In this document: positions 29,364 to 38,048 of the stretch, piece after piece
Numbering within the stretch: position 1 is the first letter of the stretch
Layout: each line of letters begins with the position of its first letter
Source of the DNA: an uncultured Rhodospirillaceae bacterium
GTDB taxonomy: Bacteria > Pseudomonadota > Alphaproteobacteria > UBA8366
NCBI GenBank assembly: GCA_913043025.1
Contig: CAJWLM010000015.1
Location: 1-60,633, forward strand
DNA length: 60,633 nucleotides
Direction of reading: 5' to 3'
Notes under the pieces: generated by a model
Seen by the model: only the letters and a program-made list of their open reading frames with translations
The model's database searches: none
Told to the model about the DNA's origin: nothing
Translations under genes and position numbers: made by a program

Positions 29364-30392
29364 ATGACTGTAAATACACAAGTTCTTCTTAAATCACGCC
29401 CCGCCGGGAAACCGACAATAGATAATTTCGAAATCATAGACACAACAATTCCGGGCATTAAAAATGGTCAGATTCTAACGCGCACCATATATCTCTCACT
29501 TGATCCTTACATGAGAGGAAGAATGAGCGACGCCAAATCTTATGCTGAGCCAGTACCGGTAGGCAGTATAATGATTGGTGGTGCTGTTGGTATTGTAGAG
29601 GAATCAAAAAATGACAAGTTCGAAGAGGGGGATATCGTTGTAACCCATACGGGCTGGCAGTCGCATGCAATTTGCGACGGGCGCGGGGTGAGGAAACTGA
29701 CTCCATCATCTGCTCCTATTTCAACAGCACTTGGAGTGCTTGGTATGCCGGGAATGACATCATATGTGGGGCTTAAACATATTGGTCTGCCCGTGGAGGG
29801 CGAAACATTGGTAGTGGCCGCAGCAACTGGTCCGGTTGGGGCCACAGTGGGCCAAATCGCAAAAATAAAGGGATGTAGGACTGTCGGCATTGCCGGCGGA
29901 GCTGAAAAATGTGCCTATGCTGAAGATGAACTTGGCTTTGACGCTTGTATCAATCATAAATCCAACAATTTCACAGATGAACTGGCTGCAGCCTGCCCAA
30001 ATGGCATTGATATTTATTGGGAAAATGTAGCCGGTCCTGTTCTCGAGGCAGTAATACCACACCTCAATTTCTTTTCACGTATACCCGTCTGTGGCCTAAT
30101 ATCTCAGTATTCAATGACTGAACTACCCAGCGGAAAGGACTATTTGCCACTTTTAATGCGCTGCATACTTACGAACCGAACCAGAGTACAAGGGTTCATC
30201 GTCACCGATTACAATACCGATTTTAAGGAATTCATATCAACAATGACTAGCTGGGTCGAAAGTAAACGCGTTATTTTTAAAGAGCATCGTATAAGAGGCC
30301 TCGAGAGTGCACCTGAAGGCCTATTAGAATTGTTAGAGGGGAATAATTTTGGGAAAACAATAGTTGAGGTATCTGAAGATCCCACTGTTTAA
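29364..30392 (+). CDS. NADP-dependent medium-chain oxidoreductase (CurA / leukotriene B4 dehydrogenase-like)
   Basis: A zinc-free MDR enzyme of 342 residues that reduces alpha,beta-unsaturated carbonyls with NADPH. Signs are the N-terminal LSLDPYMRGRMSDAKSY (typical of this subfamily), GMPGMTSYVGL, and the nucleotide-binding AAATGPVGATVGQIAKIKG, where most relatives have AASGAVGSVVGQ; the G-x-x-G-x-x-x-G spacing is kept. No structural-zinc cysteine cluster is present. Lipid peroxidation yields such enals, so it could be a detoxifying enzyme beside the peroxiredoxins, but this is inference. It is convergent with the first selenoprotein gene, 47 bases away. Confidence 0.85.
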   Translation: MTVNTQVLLKSRPAGKPTIDNFEIIDTTIPGIKNGQILTRTIYLSLDPYMRGRMSDAKSYAEPVPVGSIMIGGAVGIVEESKNDKFEEGDIVVTHTGWQSHAICDGRGVRKLTPSSAPISTALGVLGMPGMTSYVGLKHIGLPVEGETLVVAAATGPVGATVGQIAKIKGCRTVGIAGGAEKCAYAEDELGFDACINHKSNNFTDELAAACPNGIDIYWENVAGPVLEAVIPHLNFFSRIPVCGLISQYSMTELPSGKDYLPLLMRCILTNRTRVQGFIVTDYNTDFKEFISTMTSWVESKRVIFKEHRIRGLESAPEGLLELLEGNNFGKTIVEVSEDPTV

Positions 30393-30439
30393 TCGGCTGC
30401 ACGTAAATCAAATTGCGTATGTCCACCCTCAATCGAACG

Positions 30440-30883
30440 CTAGATGTCGGCCAAAACAGCGCTTGGATGTCCTAGGGCGTCCTCTACCTCAAAAGTTTTT
30501 CCTACAACCCCGTCAGTGTCTACTAGAATAGAGATTCGAGTGGCCTTCTCCTGATCCGGACTGGATGCAGCACCGTACGCAATCGCTACAGACCTATCAG
30601 CATCAGAAAGAAGGACGCCCGAGTAACCGATTTCGGCACTCCACTTCTTTAAATCTTCCGGTGTACTGAAGGTTATACCTAATAACTCAGTATTTTTGTG
30701 CGCATATTCTTGGATTCGATCACGGAACCCCTGAATTTGCTTGCTTCATCCACCACCAAAAGCCCGTGGGAAAAACCATATCAAAACTTTCTTTCCCACA
30801 TAATCTGAGAGACAAACTTTATCACCATTTTGGTTGGGCAATGTGAATGGTGGGGCTGGGGTTCCTACTTCTGGCAGTGCCAT
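30440..30883 (-). CDS. Selenocysteine peroxiredoxin 1 (in-frame TGA at codon 46)
   Basis: Read with TGA as selenocysteine, this is a complete 147-residue Bcp/PrxQ-like peroxiredoxin: MALPEVGTPAPPFTLP, NGDKVCLSDYVGKKVLIWFFP, PRAFGGG-U-SKQIQGFRDRI, then LLGITFSTPEDLKKW, LLSDADRSVAIAYGA, and ATRISILVDTDGVV with the conserved arginine. The single TGA (30746-30748) falls exactly at the peroxidatic cysteine; the rest of the frame is open to TAG at 30440. The usual Pxxx(T)xxC motif has Gly instead of Thr (PRAFGGGU). No cysteine sits where PrxQ keeps its resolving residue; the only Cys is C24. The Shine-Dalgarno is weak (AGAAGAAA). Conventional gene callers split or miss it. Confidence 0.88.
30712..30730 (-). 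promoter_or_regulatory. Bacterial SECIS-like hairpin in peroxiredoxin 1
   Basis: Sixteen to 34 bases after the UGA the mRNA reads GGGUUC-CGUGAUC-GAAUCC: a 6-bp stem (one G-U pair) with a 7-base loop having G at its second position. The distance and loop G match described bacterial SECIS rules. The same block is present at the same distance in the neighbouring gene. Confidence 0.8.
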
Positions 30884-31002
30884 ATTTTCTTCTTTCTACT
30901 GTCTAACGAAAATGAGATAGCCGCATTTCTTTTAAAAGCATATGAATTACTCAAGACTAATATGACAGATTACGCTTCTCGTCATCAATTATAGAACTAC
31001 GG

Positions 31003-31446
31003 CTATGTTAAATCCTGTAATACTTCATCCGGGTGTTCCGCAGGTTTCACAGGCGAGTAGACTTTTACAACACGACCATCGGAATCAATTAGTACTGATA
31101 TACGTCCTGCCTTGTCTGCCCCCGCTTCAGCTGCGCCGTAAAGGCTGGAAACAGCCCCATCTTGATCGCTTAAGAGATCAAAGGGAAAGTCGAATTTATC
31201 CTTGAACGCCTTGTTATCGTTGGTGCTATCAAAACTAATGCCAAAAATCTCACAGTCTTTTGCTTTGAAAAGTTGGATTCGATCACGGAACCCTTTACCT
31301 TCAATCGTTCAACCCGGAGTATCAGCTCTCGGATACCACCACAGTAAAATATTTTTTCCGTCGTAATCTGCTAATCGTACATTTAGCCCATCTTGATTGG
31401 GTAAAACAAACTGAGGCGCCATTGATCCTTTATCGAGTAATACCAT
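31003..31446 (-). CDS. Selenocysteine peroxiredoxin 2 (in-frame TGA at codon 46)
   Basis: A second 147-residue peroxiredoxin with one in-frame TGA (31309-31311) at codon 46. It reads MVLLDKGSMAPQFVLPNQDG, NILLWWYPRADTPG-U-TIEGKGFRDRI, IFGISFDSTNDNKAFKDKF, FDLLSDQDGAVSSLYGAAE and AGRISVLIDSDGRVV to a TAG at 31003. The active site P-x-x-x-T-x-x-U keeps the canonical proline and threonine. No resolving cysteine follows U46 within a few residues; one Cys occurs near 68. GGAGGA lies about nine bases before the ATG, a strong ribosome site. It precedes peroxiredoxin 1 on the same strand by 119 bases, a tandem paralogue pair. Likely role: reduction of hydroperoxides in the cytoplasm. Confidence 0.9.
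31275..31293 (-). promoter_or_regulatory. Bacterial SECIS-like hairpin in peroxiredoxin 2
   Basis: Identical to the element in the neighbour: GGGUUC-CGUGAUC-GAAUCC at +16 to +34 after the UGA. The 21-base identity (31273-31293 versus 30710-30730) includes third codon positions of GFRDRIQ, whereas shared residues elsewhere use different codons (for example PRA: CCG AGA GCT here, CCA CGG GCT there). Confidence 0.82.
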
Positions 31447-31790
31447 TACAAATGTTCCTCCATAAATATGATGGGTCTGGTTTAGAGTTTAACGGTGAAG
31501 CAAACAGTTGAAAAGCAATTTTGATTCAATTGGGTCACAAGCTAATATGGCTCTAACAAATCATGGCATAATAACAAACGTATTAATCACCAAATCGAGG
31601 GTTCCATGTAAGATGTATCGCCACACAACACTCATTTCTGAATATGTGATCGTTCTTTGACACGACGACAAAGCGCTTCTTACTTTTTCGAATACGCTTT
31701 AAACTGTTGAGTGTGCGATTTAATTATTCATGACTTGTGCTGTTAAATACTTCAAAATCCATATTTAACCACTCAATAAGGAGGGTAGAA
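31447..31790. other. Intergenic region between peroxiredoxin 2 and the hydrolase gene
   Basis: This 344-base gap separates divergent genes and must hold both promoters. It is AT-rich. I found no open frame with coding character, no TGATCC-type RpoE site and no clear sigma-70 pair for the peroxiredoxin side. Confidence 0.5.
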
Positions 31791-32513
31791 ATGCAACATA
31801 AAATCGAGAATTTGACTGTCAACAATAGCCAAATGGAGTTGTTTACATTTTTACCCGAGGGTGAGGGCCCGCATCCTGGCCTTGTTGTCGCGATGCACCT
31901 GCCGGTCGGCCATACTGGTATAGAAAATGATAAATTCACGCTGGACGCATGCAAACGCTATTGTGATGCAGGTTATGCAATTGCTTGCCCGTTTATTTTT
32001 CATTACTGGCCAAAAGAAGCAGAAATGAAAATAAAAAGAGATGAGTTTCGGGACGATCGTGTCATAGATGATTGTAAAGCGGCATTTGATTGGCTTGCCA
32101 AAAATGAAAATGTGGATGCTCAGCGTATAGGGATAGTCGGCCATTGTTGGGGTGGCAGAGTTGCGTGGGTGAGTGCGGTAAATAATCCCGAATACCGAGC
32201 ATGCACCATCTTCTATGGCGGACGTATCAAATTGCCGATGGGAGAGAATGCCCGGAAACCAATTGAGCTTGCAAATCAGATGCCTTGTGCTGTTTTGGGA
32301 TTATTTGGCAACGAAGATGAAGGGCCTTCGCCAAAAGATGTTGACGATTATACCGCTGCTCTCAGTGCGGCGGGTATTGAACATGAATTTCATAGGTACG
32401 ATGGCGCGGGGCATGGTTTTCAAGATTCGTACGCTGAAGACCGTTATAATGAAGAAGCAAGTGAGGATGCGTGGGGCAAGGCCATAGCTTTTTTCAACTC
32501 CAAGCTTAAATGA
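31791..32513 (+). CDS. Dienelactone hydrolase family protein
   Basis: A 240-residue alpha/beta hydrolase of the dienelactone hydrolase family. The nucleophile is cysteine in IGIVGHCWGGRVAW (G-x-C-x-G, near residue 120), and the catalytic histidine is in YDGAGHGFQDSYA near 210. Members hydrolyse dienelactones in aromatic catabolism or other esters; no aromatic-degradation genes are nearby, so the substrate is unknown. ATG 31791 is chosen because AAGGAGG (31778-31784) is six bases upstream; the frame extends further 5' to a TTG at 31737 without such a site. The next gene begins about 70 bases on. Confidence 0.85.
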   Translation: MQHKIENLTVNNSQMELFTFLPEGEGPHPGLVVAMHLPVGHTGIENDKFTLDACKRYCDAGYAIACPFIFHYWPKEAEMKIKRDEFRDDRVIDDCKAAFDWLAKNENVDAQRIGIVGHCWGGRVAWVSAVNNPEYRACTIFYGGRIKLPMGENARKPIELANQMPCAVLGLFGNEDEGPSPKDVDDYTAALSAAGIEHEFHRYDGAGHGFQDSYAEDRYNEEASEDAWGKAIAFFNSKLK

Positions 32514-33204: not shown

Positions 33205-33870
33205 CTAATTACCTATAAAAGGATTAAGAAAACGCCCTACGGAACCGGTCAATGATACAGGTGCCTCAGCAACAACGAGACAAATACAGTCTTTTCCAGC
33301 ATCTGCCATGGGCTGATGCTCTTCGCCCTCTCTCATTTCAACCATGTCACCACGGCTAAAGTGACCAGCCTCATCAGTGAAGGCCCCATCTAGTACTAAA
33401 GTCCACTCACTACCACCATGATCGTGGGACGGGACTTTCTTACCACCGCGTATAGCCAGCATGTAGCACTCAAATTTGTCGTGAATTTCCAACAATGGAA
33501 TTTTTTTAATTCCAAATCCAGCCCACTGCCACACGTCTTTATTATCTACTTCTCCACAATAATCGCTCAACGGTTGTGGTATCCCAGCCTTGGGTTCATC
33601 TGATCGCGTACCAATTGATGTATCATGGCAAGTTTCAACATCCAAAAAATCATCGAGTGATGCAAGTGTCTCTGACTTGAGCTCACGACTAATTTTTTCC
33701 GAGCCGCAATTGCTAACAAAGGCACCACCGATAGCTTCGTAGTCTGCAACTTTGCGTCTGCAACTCGGGCATAACGCAAGGTGAGTTGCGATTAAAAGGC
33801 TCATGGGCTCTGATGCCGCGCCACTAGCATAATCTAACAACAATGCGTCGTTTGGATGATGAGTTATCAT
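33205..33870 (-). CDS. chrR: ChrR-type zinc anti-sigma factor
   Basis: ChrR holds RpoE inactive until singlet oxygen or related oxidants release it. The N-terminal anti-sigma domain has the zinc ligands H5 (MITHHP), H30, C34 and C37 (THLALCPSC). The C-terminal cupin has H149, H151, E155 and H185 (VPSHDHGGSE..., GEEHQP); as I recall, these four are spaced exactly as in the Rhodobacter sphaeroides ChrR cupin metal site, shifted by eight residues. Length 221. The ATG overlaps the rpoE stop (ATGA), the normal sigma/anti-sigma coupling. Confidence 0.92.
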   Translation of the reverse strand: MITHHPNDALLLDYASGAASEPMSLLIATHLALCPSCRRKVADYEAIGGAFVSNCGSEKISRELKSETLASLDDFLDVETCHDTSIGTRSDEPKAGIPQPLSDYCGEVDNKDVWQWAGFGIKKIPLLEIHDKFECYMLAIRGGKKVPSHDHGGSEWTLVLDGAFTDEAGHFSRGDMVEMREGEEHQPMADAGKDCICLVVAEAPVSLTGSVGRFLNPFIGN

Positions 33871-34529
33871 ATGTCTAACTCCGTTAAGGTCTTTTTTAAT
33901 CGTTGAAAAGCTAGCCTAATACGAGATTTAACAGTTCCAAGAGGCAAACCAGTTTGTGCTGCGATTTCAGCGTGAGATTTTTCTTCAAAAAAGGCGTATT
34001 TTAGAATTTCCTTCTGCTCATCAGGCAACTCATTGATTGCCTCAGAAATACGGGTCGATGTTTGTTTCGCAAATAAAATATCGTCTGACCGGTTCGGAGG
34101 ATCATTTACCATAACCGGATCGTTGACATCCGGCTCGGGACGATTTTCTTTCCTTATAAGATCAATTCGTGCATTACGCGCGATAGTAAACACCCAAGTT
34201 GTTACCTTGCCTTTTTTCTGATCAAACTGACCGGCATATCTCCAAATCTTGATCATTACTTCCTGTGTCAGGTCATCTAATGAAACCTCGGAAGTCCCAT
34301 TTTTTCTCAAAAATCCTTTGATTTTAGGCGCAAGATGATCAAACAGGTATCCAAATGAAATTTTATCTCTCTTCTCCGCGACCAATGACAACCAGTGAGC
34401 AAGGCGCTCGTCATCACTACCCCTCCCTGTGACCGATGGCTGGTGAGAAGACATACCGTCTACAAACCCGTTCAACTCAACAAAATCCGAGCGGGATGTA
34501 TCAAATTGTGGTGTATATTCAAATGACAT
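33867..34529 (-). CDS. rpoE: ECF sigma factor RpoE (ChrR-controlled)
   Basis: An extracytoplasmic-function sigma factor of the ChrR-partner group. Region 2 is seen as FGYLFDHLAPKIKGFLRK, DDLTQEVMIKIWRYAGQFD and TWVFTIARNARIDLIRKE; region 4 as LPDEQKEILKYAFFEEKSHAEIAAQTG and the recognition helix LPLGTVKSRIRLAFQRLKK. The listed 220-residue form carries ~25 extra N-terminal residues. The promoter-like site at 34535-34563 would start transcription at about 34528, so this ATG would either open a leaderless mRNA or be skipped in favour of ATG 34454 (MSSHQPSVTG), which gives a size normal for the family. It likely activates itself and the divergent lipid cluster. Confidence 0.92.
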   Translation of the reverse strand: MSFEYTPQFDTSRSDFVELNGFVDGMSSHQPSVTGRGSDDERLAHWLSLVAEKRDKISFGYLFDHLAPKIKGFLRKNGTSEVSLDDLTQEVMIKIWRYAGQFDQKKGKVTTWVFTIARNARIDLIRKENRPEPDVNDPVMVNDPPNRSDDILFAKQTSTRISEAINELPDEQKEILKYAFFEEKSHAEIAAQTGLPLGTVKSRIRLAFQRLKKTLTELDI

Positions 34530-34638: not shown

Positions 34639-36003
34639 ATGTCAAAAGTAAATCCCAAAAAAATGAAAATAGCCGTTATAGGGGGGGGAATTAGTGGCCT
34701 CGGTTGCGCCTGGAGTTTATCAGCTCGCCATGATGTAACACTTTACGAGCGCGAAGCACAATTTGGCGGGCATGCTAAAACAGTTGTTCTTAACAACCAG
34801 GGCAACAATACCCCAATAGACGTTGGCTTTATTGTCTACAATCAACATAATTATCCCAACCTTGTTGCGCTCTTTGATCATTTAGGTGTTCAATCGGAAC
34901 GCAGCAACATGTCTTTTAGCTTCTCAAATCGTGAGCAAGATATAGAGTATGAAGGTAGTCTTCGTGGGTTTTTAACCCAGCCAAAGAACCTTTTAAAAAA
35001 ACGCTACAGGAGTATGCTTTTTGACATTGTAAGGTTTTTTCGTGAGGCAGAACAATTTCTGACCGACACAAATGCTGCTAGCGTGAGCCTTGGAGCATAT
35101 CTAAAAAGCGAAAAATATTCTGATGGCTTCATCTATGATCATTTATTACCAATGGGCGCTTCGATATGGTCGGCAAAATGCTCTGACATGTTGTCATTTC
35201 CGGCTGCGACCTTTATTAACTTTTTCAAAAATCATGCATTACTTGAGCCAGGCGCACGTCCTCAATGGAGGACGGTGTCCGGAGGCAGCGAACAATACGT
35301 CAAAAATCTGCTCTCGACCTTTGCCGGCACACCCAAGTTAAATTTTAGGGTAGATTCTATTGCGCGAGATTGTGATAGCCTTGTTATCAAAGGTGATGAT
35401 AAACAGACTCGTTTCGATGCTGTCGTTTTCGCTTGCCATGCTGATCAGGCTTTGGAAATTCTGGGAGAACAGGCAACGACCACACAACGAAAAATCCTAT
35501 CCTCGTTTCGTTACGAAAACAACCTAGGAGTTTTGCACCGAGACCCAGCTTTGATGCCGAATCGACGCCGCGCATGGGCGAGTTGGAACTTTATATCCGA
35601 CAGCAGTGTTTCCACTGAGAATATCGATCAAACAAAGTCTGTATGTGTGACTTATTGGATGAATAAACTCCAAAATATCAAAAGCCCCGAAAATCTTTTC
35701 GTAACTTTGAACCCAACTCAGTCAATTGAAGACAACAGAATTATCGACAAATTTAATTATGCGCATCCTCAGTTTGACCACAAAGCCTTAGCTGGCCAGC
35801 GTGATCTTCCAAAAATACAGGGTCAAGGTGGTCTCTGGTTTTGCGGCAGTTATTGTGGCAATGGATTCCATGAAGACGGCTTAAGAGCTGGCCTCGAAGT
35901 AGCCGAAGCTTTAGGCTCACCAGCGCCCTGGATTGCTGATGCTATGCCCAAATCAGCAACTACTGCGAATACTTCTCAACCATTCGTCAAAGCCGAGCGA
36001 TGA
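34639..36003 (+). CDS. FAD-dependent oxidoreductase (amine-oxidase-like) of the RpoE lipid cluster
   Basis: A 454-residue flavoprotein with the dinucleotide fold IAVIGGGISGLGCAWSLSA and YEREAQFGGHAKTV (residues ~10-50), and a C-terminal FAD contact GLWFCGSYCGNGFHEDGLRAGLEVAEAL. It belongs to the family found beside Cfa-like genes and often named cyclopropane fatty-acid or furan fatty-acid biosynthesis proteins. In Rhodobacter sphaeroides the gene next to rpoE is of this type and the region has been linked to furan fatty acid formation (Ufa proteins); I do not assign which Ufa step this catalyses. A lipid-chain desaturation or oxidation is the likely job. The stop overlaps the next ATG by four bases. 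Confidence 0.85.
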   Translation: MSKVNPKKMKIAVIGGGISGLGCAWSLSARHDVTLYEREAQFGGHAKTVVLNNQGNNTPIDVGFIVYNQHNYPNLVALFDHLGVQSERSNMSFSFSNREQDIEYEGSLRGFLTQPKNLLKKRYRSMLFDIVRFFREAEQFLTDTNAASVSLGAYLKSEKYSDGFIYDHLLPMGASIWSAKCSDMLSFPAATFINFFKNHALLEPGARPQWRTVSGGSEQYVKNLLSTFAGTPKLNFRVDSIARDCDSLVIKGDDKQTRFDAVVFACHADQALEILGEQATTTQRKILSSFRYENNLGVLHRDPALMPNRRRAWASWNFISDSSVSTENIDQTKSVCVTYWMNKLQNIKSPENLFVTLNPTQSIEDNRIIDKFNYAHPQFDHKALAGQRDLPKIQGQGGLWFCGSYCGNGFHEDGLRAGLEVAEALGSPAPWIADAMPKSATTANTSQPFVKAER

Positions 36004-36821
36004 AAATACGTGCACTTAAAAATCTTAGTTCGTGTTTGTACTGGGGTAGGGTCATGCACTTTAGACTTTGTCCTTCCCAGCATCGTTTTACATATCGAGT
36101 ATTTTGGTTTTTATTTGATTTGGATGAATTGCAAGCGCTTGACCGTAATCTAACATTTTTCGCGCATAATCGCTGGAGTATTTTATCTTTTTACAATAGC
36201 GATCATGGCCCACGGGATGGCACTTGCCTAAGGAGTTGGATTAATCAACATTTAGAGACAGCGGGAATTAATTTACGCGGCGGATCCATTAAACTGCTGT
36301 GTTTTCCTCGTATATTTGGTTTCGTATTCAACCCCCTCTCTATATGGTATTGCTATGACAATAATGGTTTATTGCGTGCGATTTTATATGAAGTGCGCAA
36401 CACATTTAATGAAAGTCATAGCTATCTTATTAAAATTGACTGCCCGACACTATCTTCTATCCCCCCTCATGTTGTGCAAAAACGTTTTTATGTGTCTCCG
36501 TTCGTTCAAATGGCTTGTACCTACACATTCCGGTTAACAGAACCCAAGAACGCAGTTACCTTGCATATCCGTCAATCGGATGAGAAAGAAACAGTCCTAC
36601 TTGCCACAATGATTGGTAAACAAAAAAGTCTCGATGCCAGGAACTTGGCGTTGTCGATCGTTGCATTTCCACTTATGACTATCAAGGTGGTTGCCGCTAT
36701 TCATTGGGAGGCACTTAAGCTCTGGACAAAAAAGGTACCACTGGTTCCTAAACCCTCTCCTCCAAAAAATACTGTCACGATTGGGCGAATTGGCTCAGAC
36801 AAACAAACGATTTCTGCGTGA
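36000..36821 (+). CDS. DUF1365 family protein
   Basis: A 273-residue protein of the DUF1365 family, which almost always accompanies the flavoprotein and Cfa-like genes. Family marks are YWGRVMHFRLCPSQHRFTYRVFWFLFDLDEL near the start (residues 14-44), SIKLLCFPRIFGFVFNPLSIWYC near 95 and VRNTFNESHSYLI near 125. No catalytic motif is established to my knowledge. It is coupled to the upstream gene by an ATGA overlap and followed 12 bases later by the Cfa-like gene, so the three proteins are probably made together and act on the same membrane lipids. Confidence 0.88.
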   Translation: MKIRALKNLSSCLYWGRVMHFRLCPSQHRFTYRVFWFLFDLDELQALDRNLTFFAHNRWSILSFYNSDHGPRDGTCLRSWINQHLETAGINLRGGSIKLLCFPRIFGFVFNPLSIWYCYDNNGLLRAILYEVRNTFNESHSYLIKIDCPTLSSIPPHVVQKRFYVSPFVQMACTYTFRLTEPKNAVTLHIRQSDEKETVLLATMIGKQKSLDARNLALSIVAFPLMTIKVVAAIHWEALKLWTKKVPLVPKPSPPKNTVTIGRIGSDKQTISA

Positions 36822-36833
36822 CAGGAGTCCGAA

Positions 36834-38048
36834 ATGGCAGGCACAAATTTCGAGAGTACGATTATGACAAACGAACGCAGTGGTAAAAAATTCATCGAAC
36901 GCCTGGGTAATGCTATCACATTTGGTCGTCTCACCGTTAAAACGCGTAAAGGCGGCACTTACCGTTTTGTTGGTGAAGAAGATGGGCCCGACGCTGAACT
37001 TGTAATCAAAAAACCGGGTTTTGCTCGGAAACTTTTTACTGGCGGTGATGTTGGTTTCGCAGAAGCATACATGGAGGGGATCTGTGATACAACTGACCTG
37101 ACTGCGCTAATCCAACTAGGGGCTCTAAATGAAGATGTTGCGTGGGCCAATTTTCTGAAAGGTATCCCTGTCTTCCGATGGCTCGCTCGTTTCGGGCATG
37201 CTTTACGTGCGAACAGCCGTCGTGGTGCTAAACGCAACATCAAAAGCCATTATGACCTTGGCAACGAATTTTATGCGTCATGGCTCGATCCCTCAATGAC
37301 ATACTCTTCCGCAGTTTATCCCGAAAGCACCGCCTCTCTCGAAAAAGCTCAGGAACACAAATATCATTTACTTCTAAGTGAACTTAATGTGGACGCATCT
37401 CACCATATCTTAGAAATTGGGTGCGGTTGGGGGGGATTCGCGATCCATGCGGCCAAGACGACAGGCTGTAAAGTAACCGCCCTGACAATTTCACCAGCGC
37501 AATGCAACTTCGCGAAACAGAATGTATCAAGATTAGGACTTGAGGGACAAGTTAGAATTAAGCTGTGCGATTATCGTGATATGGATGAAAAATTTGACCG
37601 CATAGTTTCCATAGAGATGCTAGAGGCAGTCGGAGAGGCCTATTGGGCAAGCTACTTTGAAAAATTTAATACATTATTGCAGAGTGGCGGTCGCGCAGCT
37701 GTTCAAGTCATTACCATAGATGAAGCATACTGGCACAGGTACCGCCGGAATCCCGATTTTATTCAGCAATATATTTTTCCAGGAGGCATGCTTCCGACTA
37801 TTGGGAGATTGCAACAAGATGTCCAAGCCGCAAAACTAAACTGGGAGAGTTGCAGTAAGTTTGGGGCAGATTACGCCAGAACGCTCAGGACTTGGTGCGA
37901 GACCTTCGATAGAAAGTGGCCTCATATTCAAACTTTGGGGTTCGATGAGCACTTTCGCCGCATGTGGCGATACTATTTTTGTTATTGCGAAGCTGGTTTC
38001 AACATAGGCCGGATTGATGTCGTCCATGCAATTTTGAGTCGAGACTGA
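36834..38048 (+). CDS. Cyclopropane-fatty-acyl-phospholipid synthase family methyltransferase
   Basis: A SAM-dependent enzyme of 404 residues that adds a C1 unit to unsaturated acyl chains of membrane phospholipids. The N-terminal lipid-binding domain ends near residue 115; YDLGNEFYASWLDPSMTYSSAVY near 140 and the SAM site ILEIGCGWGGFAIHAAKT near 190 are classic, with IVSIEMLEAVGE carrying the active-site Glu and FIQQYIFPGGMLP the later signature. In this context the product may be a methylated unsaturated chain (UfaM-like) rather than a cyclopropane; sequence alone does not decide. An internal ATG at 36864 is an alternative start. Confidence 0.92.
   Translation: MAGTNFESTIMTNERSGKKFIERLGNAITFGRLTVKTRKGGTYRFVGEEDGPDAELVIKKPGFARKLFTGGDVGFAEAYMEGICDTTDLTALIQLGALNEDVAWANFLKGIPVFRWLARFGHALRANSRRGAKRNIKSHYDLGNEFYASWLDPSMTYSSAVYPESTASLEKAQEHKYHLLLSELNVDASHHILEIGCGWGGFAIHAAKTTGCKVTALTISPAQCNFAKQNVSRLGLEGQVRIKLCDYRDMDEKFDRIVSIEMLEAVGEAYWASYFEKFNTLLQSGGRAAVQVITIDEAYWHRYRRNPDFIQQYIFPGGMLPTIGRLQQDVQAAKLNWESCSKFGADYARTLRTWCETFDRKWPHIQTLGFDEHFRRMWRYYFCYCEAGFNIGRIDVVHAILSRD

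Follow-up and report, generated by a model that had tools for sequence, protein, structure and literature searches.

Known selenocysteine-containing peroxiredoxins

Selenocysteine (Sec) peroxiredoxins of the 'TxxU' type have been described from marine metagenomes, i.e. the Sargasso Sea in 2005 and the GOS data in 2008, and reviews cite a Sec-peroxiredoxin of Eubacterium acidaminophilum from 2001. Members of this Prx TxxU family (COG1225 Bcp/PF00578) have a PxxxTxxU motif, a peroxidatic Sec and a bSECIS hairpin right after the UGA codon, all of which recur in copy A described below. The family motif is worded as T/SxxU/C in the accessible text of PMC1794560, and the accessible part of PMC8533274 describes the motif Thr as essential and replaceable by Ser, not by a residue without a hydroxyl group. 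Other peroxiredoxin-like selenoproteins named in the available portion of PMC13188914 (i.e. UxxC, UGC, UxxS, VPGU and Prx-SUH CxxU) have a Sec motif or position other than that of the two copies studied here, and the GxxU entries in its table, as far as that table is accessible, are a radical SAM protein and TsoC, with no peroxiredoxin among them. The literature drawn on, in the parts available to us, comprises PMC2398784, PMC13188914, PMC9312934, PMC1794560, PMC10298544, PMC9402790, PMC8533274, PMC1088965 and PMC5302317.

We compare with this family a locus of an uncultured Rhodospirillaceae bacterium, which lies in the window (i.e. the whole 60,633-nt stretch of DNA that was analysed). As judged from its sequence, the locus almost certainly holds two neighbouring selenoprotein genes, copies A and B. 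Copy A is a member of the selenoprotein family reported since 2005. Copy B shares the peroxiredoxin fold with the family, as predicted from its sequence, but its motif falls outside the family pattern. An earlier note on positions 31003-31446 had announced an unannotated selenoprotein: 'unannotated' is plausible, but a selenoprotein of this kind had been on record since 2005.

Two neighbouring frames with an in-frame TGA

The features of the two frames are listed below in window positions.

31003..31446, minus strand: copy A, putative Sec-containing PrxQ/Bcp-type peroxiredoxin (147 aa, motif P-R-A-D-T-P-G-U)
31005..31003, minus strand: TAG stop of copy A
31309..31311, minus strand: codon 46 of copy A, an in-frame TGA aligned with the peroxidatic Cys (5enu alignment, homologues)
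31456..31461, minus strand: GGAGGA motif 9 nt ahead of the copy A start codon, likely its ribosome-binding site
30440..30883, minus strand: copy B, second putative Sec-peroxiredoxin (147 aa; motif P-R-A-F-G-G-G-U, with Gly in place of the catalytic Thr)
30442..30440, minus strand: TAG stop of copy B
30746..30748, minus strand: codon 46 of copy B, likewise an in-frame TGA

Copy A runs from ATG to TAG as 147 codons plus stop, with a single TGA at codon 46 in the reading PRADTPG-U-TIEGKGFRD, and GGAGGA (31461-31456) stands 9 nt ahead of the ATG; both had been claimed in the earlier note. That note left the strand unstated. The plus strand of 31003-31446 has many stops and the coding strand is the minus strand. 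The gap that it reported in standard gene calling is also present, and extends over copy B: no standard-code ORF of at least 80 aa was found from 30393 to 31736. Copy B, which is absent from that note, starts 119 nt past the stop of copy A, and the two copies are 44% identical. Among 5000 random frames with the composition and length of copy A, 2 had no more than one stop; for frames modelled on copy B the count was 8 of 5000.

Selenocysteine decoding in the host genome

The genome assembly to which the window belongs (3.08 Mb, 65 contigs, 97.4% complete) contains all four Sec-decoding genes that the earlier note had proposed to look for, each above its cut-off: tRNA-Sec (selC; 71.2 bits, cut-off 47, anticodon TCA), selA (579 bits, cut-off 268), selB (442 bits, cut-off 242) and selD (309 bits, cut-off 125). 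The first three are consecutive on contig 4, in the order selA-selB-tRNA-Sec. The selD gene is part of a longer frame.

L148 2153-4417, minus strand: fused selD (754 aa; selD C-terminal, Pyr_redox_2 N-terminal)

This arrangement of selD behind a pyridine nucleotide-disulphide oxidoreductase domain resembles the Ndh-SelD fusions described from ocean metagenomes in the accessible text of PMC2398784.

A genome-wide reassignment of TGA to an amino acid other than Sec would account for the open frames and for nothing more. This reading is refuted by TGA serving as a stop, since 5 of the 11 genes near the Sec-peroxiredoxins end in an ordinary TGA. Furthermore, the residue aligned with the TGA is Cys, not Trp, in 5enu and in 19/19 non-Sec frames, which also bears out the earlier placement of Sec at the peroxidatic Cys, and the genome has tRNA-Sec (TCA), selA, selB and selD. 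We give reassignment a negligible probability.

The distribution of Sec-peroxiredoxins follows that of selA across the order. Both are present in 20 of 43 genomes and both are absent in 21, i.e. they agree in 41/43; the exceptions are G009, with selA only (84% complete), and G008, with a Sec-peroxiredoxin only (64% complete). Counted by family, Sec-peroxiredoxins and selA each occur in 10/11 genomes of f1, 11/11 of f3, 0/14 of f2 and 0/7 of f4; one partial selA match in G042 (43.7 bits) lies below the cut-off. The Fisher p value of 5e-10 for this co-occurrence ignores kinship, and the independent events behind it are few because families f1 and f3 have both genes and families f2 and f4 neither.

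Conservation of the hairpin downstream of the TGA

Each TGA is followed by a candidate bSECIS hairpin.

31275..31293, minus strand: putative bSECIS hairpin of copy A (GGGUUC-CGUGAUC-GAAUCC; loop 21 nt past the TGA)
30712..30730, minus strand: the same putative bSECIS hairpin in copy B

The sequence GGRTTCCGTGATCGAATCCAR after the TGA is nearly fixed among homologues, synonymous sites included (67 distinct frames; 71 distinct 50-nt stretches). Hairpin statistics were computed on the 71 distinct 50-nt stretches without N. Although synonyms are available, Phe is coded by TTC in 71/71 and the first Arg by CGT in 70/71. The six stem pairs are intact in all 71, and sliding the pairing partner by one base lowers the pairing to 67% or 49%. 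Copies A and B are identical in 21/21 nt at the hairpin core, which codon-shuffled pairs match in 9/20000 cases; outside the hairpin (columns 1-107), residues shared by the two copies have identical codons in 15/40. Taken singly, the stem of either gene says little, since about 14% of codon shuffles retain all six pairs (2782/20000 for A, 2815/20000 for B). RNAalifold assigns to covariation 0.3 of 6.9 kcal/mol, almost all of it from one pair, and the case for the hairpin, drawn from aligned sequences, is one of conservation, not covariation. In L186, a homologue fetched later, the outermost hairpin pair is broken.

The bSECIS model given in the accessible part of PMC13188914 has a loop of 3-9 nt with a G within its first two positions, a stem of 4-16 bp, a distance of 16-37 nt from the UGA and a minimum free energy (MFE) of at most -7.5. 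The hairpin of copies A and B fits this model as far as that text sets it out, with a 7-nt loop (CGUGAUC), a 6-bp stem, a distance of 21 nt and 50-nt-stretch MFEs of -9.3 (A) and -14.5 kcal/mol (B); the hairpin alone has -4.6 kcal/mol. The Rfam model SECIS_1 (RF00031) had no match in the host genome, nor in any of 14 control genomes. When the window was scanned against Rfam with gathering cut-offs, one tRNA and nothing else was returned.

Retention of the TGA among homologues

Within the family, 10/11 genomes gave a match; a single TGA is the sole stop in 18 of the 23 matches, and the remaining 5 are stop-free. Within the order, matches were found in 40/43 genomes, comprising 35 (from 21 genomes) with one TGA and no other stop and 34 without any stop. 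A scan of genome_contigs yielded 56 loci, with TGA at column 46 in 51 and Cys in 5; its peptide patterns covered some of the residues (GFRDRIQ) encoded by the SECIS, which biases it towards Sec members. The profile searches of order and class are free of this bias. In a second set of 21 genomes, reached via the scan loci, 31/43 matches carry the TGA, and 29 of these 31 have no further stop; of the two exceptions, a copy B relative has an additional TAG and a more distant type an additional TAA.

Pooling gave 146 loci and 98 distinct frames (58 groups at 90% identity). At column 46, where the earlier note had proposed to look for Cys or Sec in homologues, 79 of these frames have one TGA and 19 have Cys; the frames had been cut at TAA/TAG beforehand, so that L090 (which has a TAG) entered shortened, and L140 is partial. 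One branch separates Sec frames from Cys frames (98/97; SH-aLRT 99 in a second tree). The two kinds stand on opposite sides of it, and therefore no Cys member falls within the Sec clade among the rows used. The pairwise dN/dS between G000 and G010, of the same genus, is 0.13 for copy A and 0.12 for copy B (0.09 and 0.10 downstream of codon 59), and between G001 and G002 it is 0.15 for both copies (0.11 for A and 0.18 for B downstream of codon 59).

These data bear on the possibility that an ordinary Cys peroxiredoxin has suffered a nonsense mutation here, or that the TGA stems from a base-call error. The lesion is single, TGC and TGT are one base away from TGA, and one B homologue elsewhere carries a TAG as well, as such an origin would allow. 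However, 35/35 Sec-type matches of the order search share the TGA and have no other stop, where the earlier note had counted scattered stops and frameshifts as evidence against a selenoprotein. In addition, there are 79 distinct frames with the TGA, it stands in two tandem genes, selection past it is purifying, and the hairpin is kept at synonymous sites. Occurrence of the same codon in independent assemblies refutes a pseudogene or sequencing error, which we regard as extremely improbable. The frames are best read as selenoprotein genes.

Several other loci are recorded here. A more distant Sec-peroxiredoxin with the motif AFTGG-U-TxxC occurs at L169, L170, L171 and L172 (G053, G052, G057 and G058, respectively), which are in neither tree; it has a Cys four residues past the Sec, lacks GGGTTCCGTGATCGAATCC after the TGA and, in L171, also has a TAA. 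A separate tandem of A-type Sec-peroxiredoxins (TPGU and TYGU), at L062 4004-5041 in an Immundisolibacterales MAG, shares the hairpin sequence. The L037 frame of a same-family genome (G004) is identical in reading to L046, titled Alphaproteobacteria. L045, from a MAG titled Phycisphaerae, is nearly identical to L046 and L037, and both it and L075, from a MAG titled Flavobacteriales, group with alphaproteobacterial sequences; these two are probably misbinned contigs.

Family assignment and predicted fold

Both copies match PF00578 (AhpC-TSA) well above its cut-off of 26 (103.8 bits for A and 99.7 bits for B). Copy A has the complete PxxxTxxU motif (P39 R A D T43 P G U46), and copy B departs from PxxxT/SxxU at position 43 (P39 R A F G43 G G U46). 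Neither copy reaches the NCBIfam models PrxU (NF040737; 50.6 bits for A and 34.4 for B, cut-off 270) or PRK09437 (114 and 88.8 bits, cut-off 140). Copy A, being far under the PrxU cut-off, is assigned to the short PrxQ type and not to the PrxU equivalog.

A sequence search of solved structures with copy A gave Sulfolobus Bcp1 (3drn) as top match; the 3drn chain has Ser at the TGA column, where 5enu has Cys. Predicted models, with Cys modelled for Sec, have pLDDT values of 95.9 (A) and 95.3 (B). The best fold match of model A is again Bcp1 3drn (41% identity, TMq 0.90), and the best matches of model B include Bcp4 3hjp and AhpE (TMq 0.85, 33% identity). Both copies are thus predicted to fold as PrxQ/AhpE-like peroxiredoxins.

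Copy A shares the active-site Pro, Thr and Arg with PrxQ/Bcp thiol peroxidases (e.g. Sulfolobus Bcp1 3drn and Burkholderia 5enu), but differs from them in having Sec for Cys, Lys51 and no general second Cys. Lys51 occupies what we take to be the position of the resolving Cys in PrxQ. Copy B resembles AhpE, a 1-Cys peroxiredoxin of Mycobacterium tuberculosis, in its predicted fold and in its single catalytic residue. AhpE is Cys-based and has an active-site Thr, whereas both copies here have Sec and copy B has Gly for Thr.

Residue columns were compared among 56 A and 17 B frames, after frames with X or with fewer than 136 residues had been dropped. No general second Cys column besides 46 was found in this set. 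The best other candidate is column 93, with Cys in 14/56 A and 10/17 B frames; such a Cys could act as resolving residue in the 10 B frames that have it, but not in the copy B of the window, which has Ser there. Apart from column 46, the window's copy A has one Cys (65) and its copy B one (24). Copies A and B thus lack the resolving Cys by which 2-Cys PrxQ proteins are recognized. Since a conserved resolving Cys is missing from both, they probably work with a single selenocysteine and depend on outside thiols for recycling.

The copy B lineage

At position 43, the pooled distinct Sec frames have Thr in 60 and Gly in 19, and the 19 distinct Cys frames have Thr in 18 and Ser in 1. Four further distinct B frames (L173/L181, L178, L180 and L182) have Phe42-Gly43, and Gly43 is present in 23/23 distinct B frames, all with the TGA. 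Copy B sequences form a single clade (11 rows, 100/100). The clade recurs in the second tree with 22 rows and SH-aLRT 100 when columns 42-45 are excluded; that tree was built without the short L090 frame and without two AhpC-like Cys rows on long branches. Fixed or nearly fixed differences between A and B (56 A and 17 B frames) include T43G, S71T, D73S/N, N78L and F81W, which appear to be located around the active site. In its peroxidatic pocket, the B type still has Pro39 and Arg115.

A B-only profile applied at 1e-42 to 385 genomes of the class had a match in 10, of B type in 7, and all 14 matches have the TGA, one with a TAG as well. No Cys version of copy B was found in these 385 genomes, with up to 10 candidates scored per genome. 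In addition to the Sec TGA, the B copy of G043 (L174/L183; same place in G361) has a TAG in frame, which reflects either decay or an assembly error. With GxxU, copy B lies outside the T/SxxU/C wording of PMC1794560 as given in its accessible text, and the literature searched, mostly open-access and exclusive of supplements, contains in its accessible parts no description of a Thr-less (Gly) Sec-peroxiredoxin.

One possible role for copy B is that of a resolving or reductase partner of A, which would take up oxidizing equivalents via a diselenide or selenenylsulfide and pass them to a thiol system, without activating peroxide because it lacks the Thr. A and B stand in tandem in four genomes of two genera (G000, G010, G001 and G002), and 14 of the 21 Sec-peroxiredoxin genomes of the order have both types. 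Neither copy has a general second Cys, and B has lost the Thr and retained Sec and Arg, which would also suit a partner. However, A and B are unlinked elsewhere (87 kb apart on one contig in G003, on separate contigs in others), and several genomes have one type only: A in 4 and B in 3 of those 21, several of which are incomplete. In the second set of 21 genomes, 4 have both types and 17 are without B. B was also found without A in G175 and G366, where the B-only model at 1e-42 may have missed A. On balance we find a partner role unlikely.

Alternatively, copy B may be a non-peroxidase thiol/selenol oxidoreductase that uses the peroxiredoxin fold for disulfide, sulfenate or persulfide chemistry. 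Selenium compounds react with peroxides without the help of a catalytic Thr, which argues against this alternative, as does the retention of Pro39 and Arg115 in the pocket. The B-specific changes T43G, D73S/N, N78L and F81W speak for it, together with the constancy of Gly43 at a position from which PMC8533274, in its accessible part, bars residues without a hydroxyl group. We consider a non-peroxidase function doubtful, although a better candidate than a partner role.

Genomic surroundings

The neighbourhood of the two genes includes an ECF-type sigma factor and a ChrR-cupin protein, with an amine oxidase, a DUF1365 protein and a cyclopropane-fatty-acid synthase type enzyme on the other side.

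33205-34529 (minus strand) and 34639-38048 (plus strand): cluster from ECF sigma/ChrR to cyclopropane-fatty-acid-synthase-type enzyme, about 2-7 kb from the Sec-peroxiredoxins

The cluster presumably corresponds to an RpoE-ChrR response to singlet oxygen and organic peroxides, which it resembles. Because of the nearby ECF sigma/ChrR pair, an RpoE-type promoter pattern was sought; none lies near the Sec-peroxiredoxin genes, and the window holds 2, with 2.8 expected. A promoter and terminator scan of 30390-31800 found no terminator and one promoter-like site, on the opposite strand, which is fewer than in shuffled sequences. The 20 largest clusters of flanking ORFs consist of the peroxiredoxin itself, antisense-looking frames or frames from few loci, and none is put forward as a partner gene.

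Proposed mechanism and significance

We propose that SelB and Sec-tRNA would insert Sec at codon 46 of both frames. Copy A is very probably a one-Sec peroxidase. Its selenolate would attack the O-O bond of the peroxide, aided by Thr43 and Arg115, and yield a selenenic acid, which would then form a selenenylsulfide and be reduced by an outside thiol of the glutathione, thioredoxin or glutaredoxin type, completing a one-Sec cycle.

Copy B would represent a distinct conserved paralogue lineage with a pocket rebuilt around Gly43. We give about even chances to copy B being peroxidase-like with an oxidant or reductant other than that of A, selenium supplying the reactivity otherwise provided by the Thr hydroxyl. 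More tentatively, and at somewhat less than even chances, selenium may have removed the need for the catalytic Thr in this branch and so given rise to a P-x-x-x-G-x-x-U site, present in several families of one class, that reduces peroxide by a chemistry novel for peroxiredoxins or carries out another redox reaction, possibly partnered with A. The explanation as a whole, i.e. the selenoprotein pair, the catalytic cycle of A and the peroxidase-like reading of B, is held with high confidence, and no higher because the less certain reading of copy B is included.

Copy A belongs to a marine selenoprotein type known for about twenty years, yet it is missed by standard-code frame finding and scores below every curated NCBIfam cut-off. 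The copy B lineage has a conserved Gly where the accessible text of PMC8533274 calls Thr essential and replaceable by Ser only, and every B match found has the TGA. Copy B may therefore serve as a natural test of whether Sec can stand in for a catalytic hydroxyl and, more broadly, of what selenium buys an enzyme.
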